Origin: an uncultured Bacteroidota bacterium
Lineage (GTDB): Bacteria; Bacteroidota; Bacteroidia; Flavobacteriales; Flavobacteriaceae
Direction: 5' to 3'
Length of the DNA: 64,000 nucleotides
NCBI GenBank assembly: GCA_902613595.1
Contig: CACMHY010000006.1
Location: 1-64,000 of the forward strand
Numbering within the stretch: the first letter of the stretch is position 1; every line of letters begins with the position of its first letter. A program made the position numbers and the translations under genes. Positions 1 to 6,488 of the stretch are shown here, piece by piece. The notes under the pieces are model-generated. The model saw only the letters and a program-made list of their open reading frames with translations. It was not told the DNA's origin and did not search any database.

Positions 1-1
1 T

Positions 2-598
2 TGGGATACATCAAATGTAACGTCAATGAAAAAAATGTTTTGGGGTGCTGTCTCATTTAATCAGGATATGAGTAAGTGGGATGTATCAAATGTTACTGAT
101 ATGGAAGGATTATTTTACCAAGCAGAAAATTTTAACCAAGATATTGGGAATTGGGATACTTCAAAAGTTATAAATATGGAACGCGTATTTCAGTTAGCAA
201 ATTCCTTTAACCAAGATATTGGGAATTGGGATACTTCAAATGTAACTTCAATGTTGGGACTATTTTTATCCAACCAATCTTTTAATCAAAATATTGGGAG
301 TTGGGATGTTTCTAAAGTTACTAATATGTTATGGATTTTTAGAGCCAGTATTTTCAATAAGGATATCAGCAATTGGGATGTCAGTAACGTTACAAGTATG
401 GAAGGAGCCTTTCACGATAATACATCATTTAATCAAAATATTGGGAATTGGAATACCTCCAATGTTGGTAGAATGATGGACATGTTTTATGGTGCCACTG
501 CTTTTAATCAACCAATTGGAAACTGGAACGTTTCAAATGTTAGTCAAATGAATCAAATGTTTTATGGAGCCACTAATTTTAATCAAGACCTAACTGAT
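2..598 (+). repeat. Tandem ~75-bp coding repeats (BspA/DUF285 units)
   Basis: Eight consecutive units start at bases 2, 77, 152, 227, 302, 374, 449 and 524. Each begins with a Trp codon and encodes W-[DN]-x-S-[NK]-V and ends in FNQDIGN-like residues. Seven are 75 bp; the unit at 302 is 72 bp (one codon shorter). A ninth, degenerate half unit follows at 599. The regular spacing shows internal duplication of one coding module, not a CRISPR array. Confidence 0.9.
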
Positions 599-1429
599 TG
601 GTGTGTTATAAACATTACATCTAAACCTACCCAGTTTGATTATCTTTCTGGATTATCAAATGCCAACAGTCCAATCTGGGGAAGATGTCCTGCTCTTGAA
701 ACATATATACCTGACGATAATTTTGAACAACGTTTGATAGACTTAGGATATGACAATGTTTTAGATGATTATGTGATTACTTCAAATATATCAAGTGTAA
801 CAATTTTAAATGTTGACCGTAAAAGTATTTCTGATTTGACTGGAATAGAGGATTTTACATCACTTGAAGAATTAAGAGTAGAGGTGAATAATTTATCATC
901 TCTTGATTTATCTCAAAACCCCAACTTAATACATCTTTCAGCTGATAGAAATAATTTAACTTGTATAGAGTTAAATGATAATGTTTACAATAATGTTCTT
1001 CCTAATCTTTGGGCAAATGGACTAACTAGCTGGAGTAGGGCTTGTTGTAGTATGGATTTCAATTCAGTTATCTATAATACAGATTGTTCAAATCCTAATA
1101 TGGATAATATAATTTATGTGACTTCAAGTGATGATTCTGATTACACTATCATAGGAAAAGATTCGAATGGAGATGTAGATGCATTAGACCCAACTTTAAA
1201 CTTTAATGTTGGTGATGTAATATATTTTTATGTTTATGCAAACAGTAATGGGACACCTGATTTTTTCCATCTAAAAACACAACCAACGACTGGCTTGGGA
1301 GACCAGATTTCAATTCCATCTGGAACATATGCAGGTAATATTATTTGGAAACCTGACACTGCTGGAACCTTTTACTATCAGTCAAGGAATAACAGTGGTC
1401 AAGGTGGACAAATTATAATTTCTGATTAA
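2..1429 (+). CDS. BspA-like repeat surface protein with LRR-like and degenerate cupredoxin domains (5' end outside window)
   Basis: The reading frame is open from base 2, so the N-terminus lies upstream of the window. It begins with eight near-perfect 24-25-residue units (bases 2-598) of the pattern WDxSNVTxMxxxFxxAxxFNQDIGN, the BspA/DUF285 leucine-rich-repeat-like family common on surface proteins of Bacteroidota and mollicutes. After a cysteine-containing half unit comes a segment starting near YIPDDNFEQ with DLTGIEDF and LDLSQNPNL, a flavobacterial LRR type. The last ~100 residues resemble a cupredoxin fold (FNVGDVIYF, FFHLKT, AGTFYYQS), but the Cys, second His and Met of a type 1 copper site are missing. 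No C-terminal secretion-sorting domain is visible. It is probably a secreted or surface adhesion-like protein; its role is inferred only from the repeats. It lies in the accessory segment left of mnmE. Confidence 0.8.
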   Translation, partial: WDTSNVTSMKKMFWGAVSFNQDMSKWDVSNVTDMEGLFYQAENFNQDIGNWDTSKVINMERVFQLANSFNQDIGNWDTSNVTSMLGLFLSNQSFNQNIGSWDVSKVTNMLWIFRASIFNKDISNWDVSNVTSMEGAFHDNTSFNQNIGNWNTSNVGRMMDMFYGATAFNQPIGNWNVSNVSQMNQMFYGATNFNQDLTDWCVINITSKPTQFDYLSGLSNANSPIWGRCPALETYIPDDNFEQRLIDLGYDNVLDDYVITSNISSVTILNVDRKSISDLTGIEDFTSLEELRVEVNNLSSLDLSQNPNLIHLSADRNNLTCIELNDNVYNNVLPNLWANGLTSWSRACCSMDFNSVIYNTDCSNPNMDNIIYVTSSDDSDYTIIGKDSNGDVDALDPTLNFNVGDVIYFYVYANSNGTPDFFHLKTQPTTGLGDQISIPSGTYAGNIIWKPDTAGTFYYQSRNNSGQGGQIIISD

Positions 1430-1446
1430 CAAATATCATGACCTAA

Positions 1447-1805
1447 GTTACCAATATAGGACAAATGTTTATTGAAATTGATTCTAAAATTGTTTCAGAA
1501 TCATTATCAATATTATCTGAAACTTCAGTTTACTCTGCGGAACAGACATGATGGGTATTGTATCAGGTAGTGACCCTAACCTAACTTTTAGTGTTGGTGA
1601 CACCATAAGTTTTGTTGTAAATGCCTCTGGTCATCCTTTTTATCTTAAGACAGTTAGAGGAACAGGAACAGGTGATATCATAAGTGGTTTAACAAATAAT
1701 GGTACAGAAAGTGCGATAATTTCTTGGACACCAACAACAGCAGGAACCTTCTATTATCAGTGTTCTTTACACGCAGGAATGGTAGGAACGATTACTATTC
1801 AGTAA
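1447..1805 (+). pseudogene. Cupredoxin-domain fragment with an intact type 1 copper motif, probably frameshifted
   Basis: The clean part is bases 1548-1805 (ATG to TAA, 85 residues). It encodes a cupredoxin-like domain with SVGDTISFVVNASGHPF and YYQCSLHAGMVG. His29, Cys72, His75 and Met78 match the four type 1 copper ligands. There is no signal peptide and the first beta strand is missing. Bases 1447-1547 are open in another frame and end in SETSVYSA, just where the missing strand should be; a one-base loss near 1541 would join that frame to GTDMMGIVSG. I read it as a second cupredoxin domain, once part of or copied from the neighbouring surface protein, now separated by a stop at 1427-1429 and a frameshift. 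It could instead be a real 85-residue protein starting at 1548. Confidence 0.55.
1448..1461 (+). other. Possible degenerate distal attachment site
   Basis: TTACCAATATAGGA matches 12 of 14 bases of TTACCAATACAGAA at 5041-5054, in the same orientation. It lies between the surface-protein gene and the detached cupredoxin fragment. In AT-rich DNA a chance match of this quality is possible. Confidence 0.25.
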
Positions 1806-1878
1806 TATGCTATTTTAGAAATACTGAGGTGTTAGGTTATACTATCTATCACACGAAATTCCCTGTTTCCGAAAGTGA

Positions 1879-1938
1879 TTAAATCATCGGTATGTATTCT
1901 TCATTTAGTTCAAGTAGTTATTTGTATATTGGAGTTAT
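1879..1938 (-). pseudogene. Decayed copy of an unidentified gene's 3' tail (left copy)
   Basis: On the minus strand the bases up to a TAA at 1879-1881 encode LELNEEYIPMI-stop. This matches ELNEEDMPML-stop encoded at 2936-2968: 26 of 33 bases agree and the differences keep the peptide recognisable. Weaker similarity continues upstream (CAATATAC versus CAATACGC) but needs an indel, so this copy is frameshifted. I do not recognise the parent protein. Together with the right-hand copy it brackets the SnoaL-like gene. Confidence 0.45.
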
Positions 1939-1958
1939 TATCAAAAATTTATTTTCAA

Positions 1959-2882
1959 ATGAAAAATTACTTTTTATTATTTATTTTTCTTCAAACACTT
2001 GTAATTGCTCAAAAAAAGAAAAATGGAACTATATATATTGAACATCCAACAATTGAGTTAGTAAAAAAATTTGATAAAGCTTTTACTTCTGGGGACACTG
2101 AAAAAATCAAGAAATTAGTTACAGAAGACTTCAAGCTTTATAATGGTCTCTCAACCAATTTTGCGAACAACACTGGAAGCACATTAGATGGTTTATTAAG
2201 AAACTCAAAGTATTGGAGCGAGAAATTAGACGAATTTAAAATTGAATCTAGAGGAGCTGCGTATCCTGACGCTTTAGAGTTTAAAGGAGGTAGAATTTGG
2301 GTTTATACCTATGACATTTTAAGTGGATACGACAAAGAAAATGGATTTAAAATAAAAACTCCTTATGACCGTTCAATTTTATTCAATGAAAAAGGGGATA
2401 AGATTAAATACATAATTGAAAGCTTTAATACTCTTCATTTATCTAAATACAATAATTCACTTTCAACTATTGAAAATGGTAAAATATTTAAAGACCATCC
2501 ATTTATTGGTGTTGTAAGAAGAATGATGTCAAATTTTGAAAGAGGAAAATTAGATAAAGCTTACGAGGACTTTTTACCAAACGCAAAATTTTACGATATA
2601 AACCTTCCCTTTGGAGAGTCAAGAACATTAGAAGAACATAAAAAAGGGAATCAAGAACTTTTAAAGAAATTTGAAATAGTCTCCATAAATGAATCGGGCT
2701 ATCCTGATTTATTAAAATACAATGGAGATGGCTTCACAATAATTGCTTGGTGGGTTGTTGTATTAAAACATAAAAAATCAAAAAAAGAAACGAAATTATA
2801 TTTGCATAATCAATTAACTCTTAACAATGAAGGTAAGATTCAAAGATTAGTTGATTATTATAATGGTTCATTGCTTAATTAA
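1959..2882 (+). CDS. Secreted SnoaL/NTF2-like two-domain protein
   Basis: I choose the ATG at 1959 because it gives a typical signal peptide (MKNYFLLFIFLQTLVIAQ); the upstream in-frame ATG at 1875 would bury it and starts inside a decayed gene tail. The mature protein (~290 residues) shows two similar halves, each starting with a helix of the type HPxIxxVxxFxxAFxxGDxEKI / HPFIGVVRRMMSNFERGKLDKA, followed by strand-rich sequence ending in IQRLVDYYNGS-type motifs. This is the pattern of SnoaL-like (NTF2-fold) domains. Members of this fold serve as enzymes or ligand binders, and no specific activity can be assigned. It sits alone in the mnmE-linked accessory segment, flanked by two copies of the same unidentified gene tail, so it looks like cargo. 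Confidence 0.65.
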   Translation: MKNYFLLFIFLQTLVIAQKKKNGTIYIEHPTIELVKKFDKAFTSGDTEKIKKLVTEDFKLYNGLSTNFANNTGSTLDGLLRNSKYWSEKLDEFKIESRGAAYPDALEFKGGRIWVYTYDILSGYDKENGFKIKTPYDRSILFNEKGDKIKYIIESFNTLHLSKYNNSLSTIENGKIFKDHPFIGVVRRMMSNFERGKLDKAYEDFLPNAKFYDINLPFGESRTLEEHKKGNQELLKKFEIVSINESGYPDLLKYNGDGFTIIAWWVVVLKHKKSKKETKLYLHNQLTLNNEGKIQRLVDYYNGSLLN

Positions 2883-2935
2883 TAAAATTTTTTTAGCAGG
2901 CTTTTTTTAAATACAATTTTCTTTTTAATAGGTTT

Positions 2936-3043
2936 TTATAACATCGGCATATCCTCTTCATTAAGTTCAGGAGCACTATGCGTATTGAACACAAACGATT
3001 TGTCAAAAGCATTTAAATCTCTTTTGATGAGGCTTTTGCCTGC
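2936..3043 (-). pseudogene. Unidentified gene tail (right copy), overlapping the end of the excisionase-like gene
   Basis: Minus-strand bases 3043 to 2936 are an open frame of 35 codons ending in TAA. It has no start codon and follows a stop at 3044-3046. The end reads NTHSAPELNEEDMPML-stop. The same tail recurs at 1879-1911, so this is a real coding remnant rather than chance. Its first third overlaps the last codons of the excisionase-like gene in another frame, so it might be that gene's own ancestral C-terminus after a frameshift, or the end of another lost gene. Confidence 0.4.
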
Positions 3044-3273
3044 TCAATTATATCTTCTTTTGAATTAAACTTATAATGAAGCAAATAGTTTAAAACATCC
3101 TTTCTAATAAAAACTCGGTTACCATTGTTTGGCTTGTAGAAAGTTATTTTACCATCCATACAATACCTATTGAGAGTGTCAATGCTAACATTCAGCATCT
3201 TACAAACATCATGGCTTGACAAAAAATCTTTTATATCTGTATTAGCGAGTTCTTGTGTGATATTACCTTTCAT
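3013..3273 (-). CDS. Excisionase-like helix-turn-helix DNA-binding protein
   Basis: This 86-residue protein carries a MerR/excisionase-type winged HTH (HTH_17 style) at about residues 17-70: LSSHDVCKMLNVSIDTLNRYCMDG, then a wing and FIRKDVLNYLL. Such proteins act as recombination directionality factors or small regulators in Bacteroidota integrative elements. It lies downstream of, and in the same orientation as, the tyrosine integrase in the segment attached to mnmE, which fits an Xis role. A TAnnTTTG promoter box lies 20 bases upstream of the ATG, so it has its own transcription. A remnant coding tail overlaps its 3' end, so the C-terminus may be truncated by a frameshift. Confidence 0.75.
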   Translation of the reverse strand: MKGNITQELANTDIKDFLSSHDVCKMLNVSIDTLNRYCMDGKITFYKPNNGNRVFIRKDVLNYLLHYKFNSKEDIIEQAKASSKEI

Positions 3274-3292
3274 AATTTGAAATTATATATCA

Positions 3293-3300
3293 CAAAACTA
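3293..3300 (-). promoter_or_regulatory. -7 box (TAGTTTTG) of the excisionase-like gene
   Basis: The minus strand reads TAGTTTTG, an exact match to the Bacteroidota -7 consensus TAnnTTTG, 19 bases before the gene's ATG. A TTTG lies upstream but at only 13 bases, shorter than the usual spacing, so the -33 element is unclear. Confidence 0.5.
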
Positions 3301-3363
3301 AAGTATTTGGATGCAAAAAAAAGGGAAAGATATTAAAAATAGAAGGGAGTTTTCAACAATAAC

Positions 3364-3380
3364 TAACTGATAATCAGTTA
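3364..3380. repeat. 17-bp near-perfect palindrome
   Basis: TAACTGAT and ATCAGTTA (8-bp perfect arms) flank a single central base. It lies between the excisionase-like gene and the cysteine-rich peptide gene, upstream of the former. It could be an operator or an integrase/Xis accessory site; no function can be shown. Confidence 0.5.
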
Positions 3381-3512
3381 TTAACAAGTTATTAAAAAAG
3401 TGAGTTTGCGTTATTCGTAGAGGTGATAATACTTGTTACAGGGCCATGCTCTAGGAATTCAAGAACATAAAAAATTAAAAAAAATGAAATGCAAGAATTC
3501 TTTAGTGATAAA

Positions 3513-3602
3513 CTAACAATCACAAGGAGAACAACTACAGGGTTCACAAATACATGCTGAACAATCTAATTCTTTACAAGGGGAACAATCACAACTACAC
3601 AT
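3513..3602 (-). CDS. Cysteine-rich 29-residue peptide, metallothionein-like
   Basis: An ATG at 3602 opens a 29-codon frame ending in TAG at 3513-3515. The peptide starts MCSCDCSPC and ends CEPCSCSPCDC. Eleven of 29 residues are Cys (positions 2, 4, 6, 9, 14, 17, 19, 22, 24, 27, 29), in CxC and CxxC spacing separated by Ser, Pro, Asp and Ala. There are no aromatic residues and only one Lys. An in-frame TAA stands three codons before the ATG. The composition is that of a metallothionein or metal-cluster peptide; no listed family is claimed. The first and last eight residues are near repeats. A TAATTTTG promoter box with an upstream TTG precedes it. It lies between the integrase and excisionase-like genes of the mnmE-linked element and is probably cargo. 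Alternative: a chance product of an ACA-rich tract, which the clean start, stop, promoter and residue pattern argue against. Confidence 0.65.
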   Translation of the reverse strand: MCSCDCSPCKELDCSACICEPCSCSPCDC

Positions 3603-3620
3603 GCCAAATATTTATGTACA

Positions 3621-3647
3621 CAAAATTATTAATTTTTCATGAAACAA
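3621..3647 (-). promoter_or_regulatory. Promoter of the cysteine-rich peptide gene
   Basis: On the minus strand TTG (3647-3645) is followed after 16 bases by TAATTTTG (3628-3621), an exact TAnnTTTG -7 box. The ATG follows 18 bases later, leaving a short leader without a Shine-Dalgarno site. The spacing is one base below the range I recall for Flavobacterium. Confidence 0.5.
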
Positions 3648-3684
3648 TAACAGGAGTATTAAAATTATGCACTAGGCACAAATG

Positions 3685-4893
3685 TTAAAAATCTAATGAT
3701 GCACCTTCTTCCATTATTTCACCACCTAACAATGAGTTAAGGTATCGTTGGGTAGTGGATAAGTTATTGTGTTGTAAAGCTTTCATTAAACTTCCTAAAT
3801 GTCTACCCTTATTTTTCCTATAAAACATAGATGCAAAATTGTTTTTTGAAGTGTGAAATGTTATAGGTTGCTTTCTAATACCTGCATCAAGCATTATCCA
3901 TTTCAATTGTTGCTTATTGTAAGAATGTATTTTAACCTTAAAAACAAACTCATCATTACCACCTTTTGGAAGTATAAAAGACATTGCCTTTTCACTTACA
4001 AGTAAACGAGCAGGTTTTCCTGTTTTTTGCCTTTTAACATTAACGTACCACTTGTCATTTTCTTTGTCGTGGCTAAAATCTCCCCATTTTAATTCAAGTA
4101 ACTCTGACCTTGTAATTGCTGAATATGATGCAAATAAATACGCTTGTTTCAAAGGTTGATATTTGGTTTCTAATTGTTCAAGTTGGTCTAATTCATGCTT
4201 TTCAAGAAATACTTTGTTCTTTTCTGGGCTTGCTTGACCAACTCTAATTCCTTTTGCAGGTGATAAACCGTCCAGAACATTACCATTATATAGTTGTTCC
4301 AAATAATACTTAAATGACTTCATATATCCCTTGTAAGCGGACTCAGACAATTTATTTCCATTAGTGCCAGTTCTTTTTTGGAGATGATTATAAAAATCAA
4401 TACAGGTTATTTTATCAAGTTCGGTAATTAAAATATCCCTGCCCTTGAATTCCATAAAGTGTTTACGAAGAATTTCATATCTATCCCTTGTACTTTTTTC
4501 ATAATTTTTACTTGGCAGAAAATTGTGCATCATGTAGTCCAACAAGTAGGTGTTACTAACGTTCAAACCCCCACGCTTATATGTGCCTTTTGCTATATCA
4601 GCCCTAATAATAGTTGCTTTTTCTTCTACAAGCTCCCTTACGTGTTTGTTTTGTTGTCTTTCTTTGTCATTCTTTGGTTTGATGTAGGTAGTAAAATCTG
4701 AAAAATACTTATCCTCTTTGTCTTTAACCATTATTGGGTTACCATCAGAATCAAACAATTGCTTTTTGCTTTTCTTGTCAATTTTAGGTTTTTGCCCATA
4801 GTAAATTACTATGTAAAAACCTCTTCTATCAACTTTTTGAACATCCTTTGGGTAAACGTGAACTTTAACTCTATTTTGCCGTAAATTAGACAT
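3685..4893 (-). CDS. Tyrosine recombinase (integrase) of the mnmE-linked element
   Basis: I choose the ATG at 4893 (402 residues, MSNLRQNRVKV); a longer frame to 4962 would put the start inside an inverted repeat. The order is an N-terminal arm-type region, a SAM-like core-binding region (~112-205) and the catalytic domain (~225-390). Visible catalytic residues are Arg262 (ITRSELLELKW), Lys290 (RQKTGK), His347 (FHTSK), His375 (LQHNNLSTTQRY) and the nucleophile Tyr384. The second conserved Arg, expected at HxxR, is Lys350 here, which is unusual. The protein probably integrates and excises the adjacent element at the 3' end of mnmE, which ends 143 bases upstream and points the same way. An HTH protein of excisionase type lies downstream. 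Whether the Lys350 form is active is unknown. Confidence 0.85.
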   Translation of the reverse strand: MSNLRQNRVKVHVYPKDVQKVDRRGFYIVIYYGQKPKIDKKSKKQLFDSDGNPIMVKDKEDKYFSDFTTYIKPKNDKERQQNKHVRELVEEKATIIRADIAKGTYKRGGLNVSNTYLLDYMMHNFLPSKNYEKSTRDRYEILRKHFMEFKGRDILITELDKITCIDFYNHLQKRTGTNGNKLSESAYKGYMKSFKYYLEQLYNGNVLDGLSPAKGIRVGQASPEKNKVFLEKHELDQLEQLETKYQPLKQAYLFASYSAITRSELLELKWGDFSHDKENDKWYVNVKRQKTGKPARLLVSEKAMSFILPKGGNDEFVFKVKIHSYNKQQLKWIMLDAGIRKQPITFHTSKNNFASMFYRKNKGRHLGSLMKALQHNNLSTTQRYLNSLLGGEIMEEGASLDF

Positions 4894-4896
4894 ATA

Positions 4897-4922
4897 TGTC
4901 GTATAAAAATACTTGTACGACA
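4897..4922. promoter_or_regulatory. 7-bp inverted repeat at the integrase start
   Basis: TGTCGTA (4897-4903) and TACGACA (4916-4922) are perfect inverted arms around 12 AT-rich bases, three bases before the integrase ATG and within 115 bases of the mnmE 3' end. It could be an operator for int autoregulation or a recombinase-binding site. Confidence 0.5.
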
Positions 4923-5036
4923 AATATACGGCACTTAAATGAAATTTATCCCCATTGAACAAAATTTATTAAAATCGCTATACAGCAGTGTATTAGCAGG
5001 AATTAAAAGGAAATAAAAGCTTGTGAAATTACAGTT

Positions 5037-5054
5037 TTATTTACCAATACAGAA
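5037..5054 (-). other. Putative attachment site at the mnmE 3' end
   Basis: The last 18 bases of mnmE read TTCTGTATTGGTAAATAA on the minus strand. From memory, the SGI1 attB in Salmonella trmE is TTCTGTATTGGTAAGTAA, differing at one base. The integrase gene is the next gene out. A matching end elsewhere would prove it; a partial match is at 1448-1461. Confidence 0.5.
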
Positions 5055-6488
5055 TTGGCTGAAAATAGACCCTAAAACATCTCTATCGTTATCAATTTCC
5101 CCTGTAATTGAACCAATATGATGAATTGCCTCTTTCAACTCCACGCTTAACAAATCTCCACTTAATTTATTATTAAGATCCTTTTGAATTTTTTCAACTG
5201 ACACGAGAGATTCCTTTAGTGCATTGTAGTGCCTTGTATTTTGAATAATATAGTTAGAGTTAGTTCTTAGACCCTCAACAAGTTTTACAAGCATCTTTTT
5301 AAGGGGAATTAGACTTTTAGGATTGAAGGTTGAAATACCTAGTTGTCCATAAATTTTTACTGAATTTAATTTGCTCTCAATTTTTGAAGCTAATGATGAG
5401 TTAAACTTGTTATTATTTTTATCAATTTTATTTTCAATAGTAATGAGAGTAGGGGAGTTATATAATAATTCGCTTATTTCATTATCTATATCTGTCAAAT
5501 TAGAATCACTGTCATACATGTAAATTAGAATTGAGGATTTTTTGACCTTTTCTTTTGCTTTTTTAACTCCAATTGCTTCAATTACATCATCTGTGTCTCG
5601 AAGACCAGCTGTGTCAATAAATCGAAACAAAATACCCTCTATAGTCAGTGTATCTTCAATTGAATCTCTTGTTGTACCAGGGATTTTTGAAACGATTGCT
5701 TTATCCTCATTAAAAAGAGCATTTAACAATGACGATTTTCCTGTATTTGGTTTACCTGCTATGGCTACGGGTACTCCATTTTTTATAGCATTTCCATAAT
5801 TAAAGGATAGTTTTAAATCACTAATTTCTTTATGGAGATTCTCAAGTAATAATTGTAGTTGATTTAAATTCGCAAACTCAACATCCTCTTCTCCAAAATC
5901 AAGCTCCAATTCGATTAATGATTTAAATTTTATAAGCTCCTGCCTCAATTTTTTCATTCTATTAGAATAGCCACCACGCAATTGTTTTATTGCAATCTCA
6001 TGTGCTGCTGAGCTTTCAGAGGCTATAATATCGCATACAGCTTCTGCCTGACTTAGGTCCATTTTTTTATTTAAATAAGCACGTAGAGTAAATTCTCCTT
6101 CCTTGGCAAGCATTATGCCTTCTTCAATAAAACTTGAAACTATCTTTTGCAGAATATAGTTAGAGCCATGGCATGAAATTTCAACTACATCTTCACCAGT
6201 GTAAGAATTTGGTGATCCAAATTTTGTGACAAGAACCTCATCAAGAATAGTATTATTAATAACAAGGTCCCCAAAGATTACCTTATTAAAAGGGAGCTTT
6301 TCAAAGGATTTATTTGATTTGGGTCTAAAAAAAAGATTTGTTTTTGTTATGGATTCTGGTCCTGATAAACGAATTAATCCGATCGCTCCTTTGCCCGCTG
6401 GAGTGGCAATTGCAATAATTGTTCCCTCATTAATCACCTTATATGCTCTTATTATATGTAGCTCTTCTTTTATGAAGCCTGTGCTCAT
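5037..6488 (-). CDS. mnmE: tRNA uridine-5-carboxymethylaminomethyl(34) synthesis GTPase MnmE
   Basis: MnmE with MnmG modifies U34 of certain tRNAs in the cytoplasm. The N-terminal formyl-folate-binding domain (TIIAIATPAGKGAIGLIRLSG) is followed by helices and an inserted G domain with G1 GKPNTGKS (~245-252), DTAGLRDT and NKID, and ends in the family's C-terminal FCIGK. The ATG at 6488 gives 483 residues; E. coli MnmE has 454. A GTG at 6437, just past the stop of the upstream gene, would give 466 and align better with the family start, so the first 17 residues are doubtful. It overlaps the upstream GNAT gene and probably shares its transcript. Its 3' end looks like the integration site of the neighbouring mobile segment, which leaves the gene intact. 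Confidence 0.95.
   Translation of the reverse strand: MSTGFIKEELHIIRAYKVINEGTIIAIATPAGKGAIGLIRLSGPESITKTNLFFRPKSNKSFEKLPFNKVIFGDLVINNTILDEVLVTKFGSPNSYTGEDVVEISCHGSNYILQKIVSSFIEEGIMLAKEGEFTLRAYLNKKMDLSQAEAVCDIIASESSAAHEIAIKQLRGGYSNRMKKLRQELIKFKSLIELELDFGEEDVEFANLNQLQLLLENLHKEISDLKLSFNYGNAIKNGVPVAIAGKPNTGKSSLLNALFNEDKAIVSKIPGTTRDSIEDTLTIEGILFRFIDTAGLRDTDDVIEAIGVKKAKEKVKKSSILIYMYDSDSNLTDIDNEISELLYNSPTLITIENKIDKNNNKFNSSLASKIESKLNSVKIYGQLGISTFNPKSLIPLKKMLVKLVEGLRTNSNYIIQNTRHYNALKESLVSVEKIQKDLNNKLSGDLLSVELKEAIHHIGSITGEIDNDRDVLGSIFSQFCIGK

Follow-up and report, generated by a model that had tools for sequence, protein, structure and literature searches.

A putative miniature metallothionein-like peptide of Flavobacteriaceae, with relatives linked to SigZ-like sigma factors

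In the window, by which we mean the whole 64,000-nucleotide stretch of DNA analyzed here, a short frame on the minus strand (3513-3602) runs from ATG to TAG and encodes the 29-residue peptide MCSCDCSPCKELDCSACICEPCSCSPCDC, in which 11 residues (38%) are Cys in a CxC/CxxC arrangement and none is Phe, Trp, Tyr, or His. A reading made from the sequence alone (hereafter, the sequence-only reading) had described a complete Cys-rich frame with its own start and stop codons and an in-frame stop upstream of it, and both observations are borne out, the upstream stop lying four codons 5' of the ATG. When the 64-kb window was simulated 60 times with a first-order Markov model, the highest number of Cys per 29 residues in any frame was 8, and this value was reached once. 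Genes of ~30 codons commonly fall under gene-calling limits. As had also been supposed, no named family matches the peptide: searches returned no Pfam family at E≤10, no NCBIfam family at E≤1, and no match in PHROGs, and no PDB chain matched either the peptide or a profile of 25 members at E≤10.

Upstream of the peptide gene, the promoter-like pair of TTG (3647-3645) and TAATTTTG (3628-3621; minus strand), separated by a 16-bp spacer, ends 18 bases before the ATG; we name it a housekeeping-type promoter on the assumption that it follows the Bacteroidota consensus. The sequence-only reading had written this box as TAnnTTTG; the box is indeed present at 3628-3621, but its final G is not conserved because the four nearest relatives read TAATTTTA. 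No SigZ-type promoter of the kind described below was found upstream of the window copy. Promoter and gene lie within a 203-bp block on the minus strand (3463-3665; upstream region, peptide gene, and downstream region), which is delimited by its match to relatives: the whole block, or 187–190 bp of it, recurs with ~89–91% identity in four other genomes of the genus. These copies occupy two other loci with unrelated flanks and, because the block matches while the flanks differ, the shared unit is the upstream–gene–downstream block rather than an integrase module.

The peptide gene is located between genes for a tyrosine integrase of 425 residues (3685-4962; domain matches to Phage_integrase and Phage_int_SAM_5) and an excisionase-like HTH_17 DNA-binding protein of 86 residues (3013-3273; domain match), with all three on the minus strand. 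Except for the 203-bp block, a segment of ~2.05 kb (2986-5036) is unmatched in 12 stretches from relatives. Its left edge is where 96.6% identity with a relative stops, and its right edge is the 3' end of a minus-strand gene (5037-6488) that we take from its sequence to be mnmE/trmE. At the mnmE 3' flank, relatives carry different genes, and in the three relatives compared (window position 5036 against L322, L323, and L330) the flank is different in each, as would be expected of a hot spot for insertions. An exact 11-mer search of window positions 5001-5130 against 1-4990 found no att repeats. One partial copy of a repeated upstream element is present just before the start of the 2.05-kb segment; this element, in its fullest form CATCGGCATATCCTCTTCATTAAGTTCAGG..CTAATTTGTATATTG..TATTAATCATAAATCAATTAAAATG (window 1879-1990 and 2933-2985; L322-L333), precedes many small genes in variable regions of the window's genus, as if these belonged to one regulon or to a system of shuffled gene units.

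The sequence-only reading had regarded the peptide as cargo of an integrase module. For the window copy, it is possible that the gene is cargo of an integrative element, but the family is not generally tied to integrases. Specifically, the window integrase has a counterpart at E≤1e-20 in only 1 of 38 genomes of the genus, i.e., its own; a viral scan found no relative; and the peptide's relatives are either next to a SigZ-like sigma gene or in settings where no integrase was noticed among the frames listed. We therefore rejected integrase linkage as a general rule of the family; the integrase setting is incidental to it.

The family counts that follow include the window's own genome. A single-sequence search found the peptide in 7 of 397 Flavobacteriaceae genomes, which is an undercount in that G142, G288, and G168 carry the peptide outside these 7 matches; one of the 7 (L003 in G249), close to the end of a contig, has a frame interrupted by a TAA 20 residues in and was dropped from the locus counts. 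A profile search identified 16 copies in 14 of the 38 genomes of the window's genus at E≤1.8e-5, and two weaker matches (L028 and L029; E = 0.23 and 0.34) that have no core motif were dropped. Further afield, the profile found the peptide in 11 of 395 genomes of the order, and in a sample of the phylum it was present in 5 of 395 genomes, the window's own among them, all from the same family. Named hosts among the matches listed include Polaribacter, Tenacibaculum, Winogradskyella, Gelidibacter, Lutibacter, Oceanihabitans, Leptobacterium, and one Cytophagales bin. Over all loci, there are at least 62 frame matches. One DNA-pattern scan of genome contigs and two of viral sequences give no prevalence, because their results are known from the matches listed, most of which lack the motif in an open frame. 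In plasmid records, the only match, from an insect symbiont, covered 12% of the query and is taken as chance, and tblastn of phage records gave no match under a low-complexity filter that may mask matches. Among the literature matches listed, no title or abstract opening dealt with the peptide or with SigZ together with a metallothionein.

Members of the family are 28–37 residues long with 11 Cys, and the Cys ladder CxCxCx2Cx4Cx2CxCx2CxCx2CxC is exact at 70 of 74 loci, which include some places counted twice and correspond to 68 distinct peptides. Because the loci were gathered with a 9-Cys regular expression, part of this invariance is due to their selection. The exceptions are L002 and L021, which are one residue shorter, L031, which has x5, and L007, which ends in CRV. 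The 64 distinct peptides with exact spacing, likewise selected by the regular expression, all share the 11 Cys, and positions other than Cys are also constrained, with Gly at position 11 in 51 of 64 and Thr at position 17 in 45 of 64. At two loci (L018 and L019), the next gene downstream of the peptide gene, in the same orientation, encodes a protein of 70–87 residues that ends in SCGCC in both; the L019 protein has no Pfam match.

Among seven copies from the window's genus, substitutions are mostly at third codon positions (1/1/11 over the three positions in the largest pair), all Cys are retained while TGT and TGC codons are exchanged, and pN is 0–0.07 compared to a pS of 0–0.67. pS exceeds pN in 20 of 21 pairs, and the sole other pair (L014/L020) differs by one change; by raw counts, silent changes do not exceed replacement changes in 7 of the 21 pairs, which are of low divergence or involve L019. 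Thus, the two findings that could have spoken against a gene, namely a lack of homologous frames with conserved Cys codons or substitutions spread evenly over codon positions, were not what we observed. The copies in the window's genus are under purifying selection, and the window frame is a real peptide gene.

In the larger Flavobacteriaceae, the peptide gene mostly lies just upstream of a gene for an ECF sigma factor, and these sigma factors belong to a single SigZ-like clade. Among 32 cellular loci outside the genus that were found via the peptide, a SigZ-like gene comes next on the same strand at 21, 3 are cut by the edge of the locus, and 8 are without such a gene in the stretch compared. 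Starting from the sigma factor, the SigZ model (TIGR02959) matched in 75 of 299 Flavobacteriaceae genomes at E≤1e-25, with 6 of 299 over the curated cut-off. At the best 30 of these SigZ loci, the peptide gene is upstream in 18, at 12–124 bp before the sigma gene, and absent in 12. In a tree of the 30 sigma factors, the 18 peptide-linked ones make up one side of one branch, with a moderate support of 90/75 and 92% of 200 bootstraps and with the long-branched L338 adjoining the peptide-linked group; none of 500 shuffles was as low. All 35 distinct peptide-linked sigma factors have a C-terminal tail of the form CC...CxxC, although some species, or pairs of sister species, may be represented twice among the 35 loci because two collections were used; L049 alone was retained of two loci (L049 and L355) sharing one peptide. 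Between sigma2 and sigma4, the linker contains a single conserved Cys and no CxC as judged by eye in 18 sequences, and the best NCBIfam matches of the two sigma proteins scanned were SigZ models. None of the 30 unlinked peptide loci, the window and the viral loci included, has a SigZ-like frame in the stretch examined. At one locus of the other SigZ group (L357), a different short frame ending in CCGGGGCC precedes the SigZ-like gene.

The sigma-linked loci have in common a near-invariant pair of boxes upstream of the peptide gene, typically TGCATCTTTTT-N12-GTCT. In its relaxed form, GC(A/G)TC-N17-GTCT, this pattern is present at all 35 linked loci and all 3 edge-cut ones, at none of the 30 unlinked loci, and before none of the 12 SigZ-like genes without the peptide; at L346, it matched once, before a different frame downstream of the sigma start, which we take as chance. 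Because the pattern was derived from the loci on which it was scored, the genome-wide and cation diffusion facilitator-type (CDF) tests below, which alone are independent, matter. In the gap between the peptide and sigma genes, a hairpin is predicted; against 100 mononucleotide shuffles per intergenic region, 32 of 34 gaps fold with z < -2, and the median z is -5.5.

In 25 genomes with the peptide–sigma pair, the strict pattern GCATCTTT-N14-GTCTW gave 28 matches, of which 22 are at the peptide operon and 6 elsewhere, and 3 of the 25 genomes had no match; the reversed control pattern gave 3 matches in the same genomes. Four of the six off-operon matches precede a CDF gene (Cation_efflux, PF01545, with ZT_dimer), one of them via an intervening gene that we take to be rpiB-like; of the remaining two, one (in G711) precedes a TonB receptor gene followed by one of the four CDF genes and one is inside a coding sequence. 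In 25 control genomes, defined by having no peptide match and of which 13 were shown to be SigZ-negative, there were 11 strict matches; 10 were examined, of which 8 are inside open reading frames and none is ahead of a CDF gene. CDF-linked promoters are thus present in only 4 of the 25 peptide–sigma genomes. A second pattern, spanning the SigZ promoter to the CDF start, recovered only G083 and G131 again from 80 genomes, in addition to a match in G293 that is inside a coding frame. In G711, a further gene, for a 264-residue Cation_efflux protein (L388:2104-2898; L380), is located two genes upstream of the promoter-bearing TonB receptor and CDF genes.

The motif also occurs in open frames of at least ten viral stretches, frames with Cys runs of more than 13 per 28 residues having been dropped. 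Six of these frames are short (31–68 residues) and four encode head maturation proteases, with the 11-Cys ladder in a late part of the protein or close to its end (L176:6914-6997; L190:2117-2200; L195:9399-9482; L409:6808-8004, minus strand). The best PHROG matches of these proteases differ in type, being PHROGs 94 and 53 in some and PHROG 80 in others, which we take to be ClpP-like and HK97-like, respectively. In this way, the family points to a Cys module in phage capsid maturation proteases.

Taken together, we favor, as the likely explanation, that the window gene encodes a miniature, single-domain, metallothionein-like peptide that is an orphan member of a family controlled by a sigma factor in a Zn/Cd-type response. 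That the peptide is probably a miniature metal-binding protein is suggested by its relatives, which occur in marine-type bacteria, are paired in related genomes with a switch protein, and have a promoter that also precedes zinc-type metal pumps. In this working model, the 11 thiolates would hold d10 metal ions in a small cluster, with Zn(II) and Cd(II) the likeliest, and the peptide would buffer the metal. In most of the Flavobacteriaceae outside the genus in which it was found, the peptide gene heads an operon of two genes, the other encoding the SigZ-like ECF sigma factor; metal would act on the CC...CxxC tail of this factor, which would then use GCATCTTTTT-N12-GTCT to transcribe its own operon and, in some genomes, also a CDF exporter, while the intergenic hairpin would leave more peptide transcript than sigma transcript. 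For the window copy, we found no SigZ match in the organism's genome (85% complete) and no sigma gene nearby, and we suggest that it is an orphan of the sigma-linked family whose SigZ gene was lost or never present, that it would be expressed from its housekeeping-type promoter, and that it may travel as a short promoter–gene block. Because the window organism is without a SigZ match, the regulon evidence reaches the window copy by homology only. The metal carried by CDF exporters varies from one member to another; the metal of the peptide is therefore not fixed, and Cu(I) is a less likely candidate.

We considered whether the peptide might instead be chiefly a regulator, i.e., not a metal sink but a metal- or redox-labile anti-sigma factor or co-sigma partner acting with the SigZ-like factor. 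Its pairing with one SigZ clade bearing a Cys tail of its own, and a promoter found before the pair but not before SigZ-like genes without the peptide, are in line with this idea. We nonetheless regard it as unlikely because all 30 unlinked loci, including viral ones, are without a SigZ-like frame in the stretch examined and the window's genome is without a SigZ match; moreover, hairpin and gene order suggest that the peptide would be made in excess, and 28–37 residues with 11 Cys would leave little room for an anti-sigma fold. Slightly less probable still is a thiol redox buffer or a copper or iron–sulfur peptide in place of one for Zn/Cd. Cu(I) binds to 11 thiolates just as readily as Zn does, and one copy in the genus is near a gene of the DUF411 family, which we take to be copper-linked; however, the sigma-type promoter also precedes CDF genes with zinc-transporter dimerization domains, and no copper ATPase gene is among its six off-operon matches.

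The order of a short Cys-rich frame, a hairpin, and a regulator gene could also be that of a cysteine-responsive leader, in which ribosomes stalling at Cys codons would control the downstream gene via the hairpin, and polycysteine leader attenuators have been reported in mycobacteria. This we consider quite improbable: none of the 25 aligned members has two Cys codons in a row, so that the run of adjacent Cys codons of such an attenuator is lacking and a fixed protein spacing is present instead, Gly 11 and Thr 17 are constrained, and orphan and viral copies retain the protein without a sigma gene. Finally, the near-repeated ends of the peptide would suit the precursor of a modified peptide (RiPP), a possibility raised in the sequence-only reading, or a non-functional repeat, but purifying selection on the peptide, no evident division into leader and core, and no maturation genes noticed by eye among the neighboring frames listed make this highly implausible.

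Returning to the metallothionein-like reading, the wider picture that we regard as about evenly balanced is that of a metal-response module in which an ECF sigma factor serves hardly anything but a metallothionein-like peptide of 33 residues, with a near-invariant promoter and, in some genomes, CDF exporters. In that picture, the peptide would have spread alone, as a promoter–gene block, into relatives with small genomes, and viruses would use a module of identical spacing, either as a free peptide or within capsid maturation proteases of two unrelated kinds. The 11-Cys ladder makes the family findable by pattern, and our analysis points to a possible function for one SigZ-like clade of sigma factors. 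Because a sigma factor, a promoter, and in some genomes an exporter accompany the family, the identity of the metal and the regulation are directly testable.

Among known systems, the closest to the sigma partner that we compared are the ECF sigma factors CorE and CorE2 of Myxococcus (ECF44/ECF238), of which CorE2 responds to Cd/Zn (PMC8999054). They share with the partner sigma factor a Cys-bearing C-terminal tail (PMC8999054). The partner differs in being SigZ-like and in having a linker without CxC, and its operon is unlike theirs in that the first gene encodes the 11-Cys peptide. The phage head maturation proteases (PHROGs 94, 53, and 80) have the identical 11-Cys spacing but, unlike the free peptide, carry it embedded in a protein of 271–410 residues, and may have it by homology or by convergence.

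To our knowledge, few bacterial metallothioneins are known. The bacterial SmtA type, which we take to be represented by Metallothio_Pro (PF02069), has ~56 residues, His ligands, and a zinc-finger-like fold. The window peptide resembles it in being small and Cys-rich and in its presumed cytosolic metal binding, and differs in its 29 residues, its lack of His, and its lack of a profile match (Pfam at E≤10; NCBIfam at E≤1), and on these grounds we rejected this assignment: the peptide appears not to be an SmtA-type metallothionein, while being metallothionein-like in its design. The resemblance to metallothioneins noted in the sequence-only reading is the best fit among the comparisons made, and the apparent metal-handling regulon of the relatives strengthens the metal-handling interpretation. 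The window peptide, for which we infer metal binding, differs from animal metallothioneins in its even CxC/CxxC ladder and its single free-standing domain. Like metallothioneins in general, it combines a short chain, a high Cys content, and CxC/CxxC spacing with few or, as here, no aromatic residues, and it is also without His. The alpha domain of mammalian metallothionein holds an M4S11 cluster with 11 Cys, and the window peptide matches this M4S11 domain in its number of Cys, its length of ~30 residues, and its CxC/CxxC motifs.
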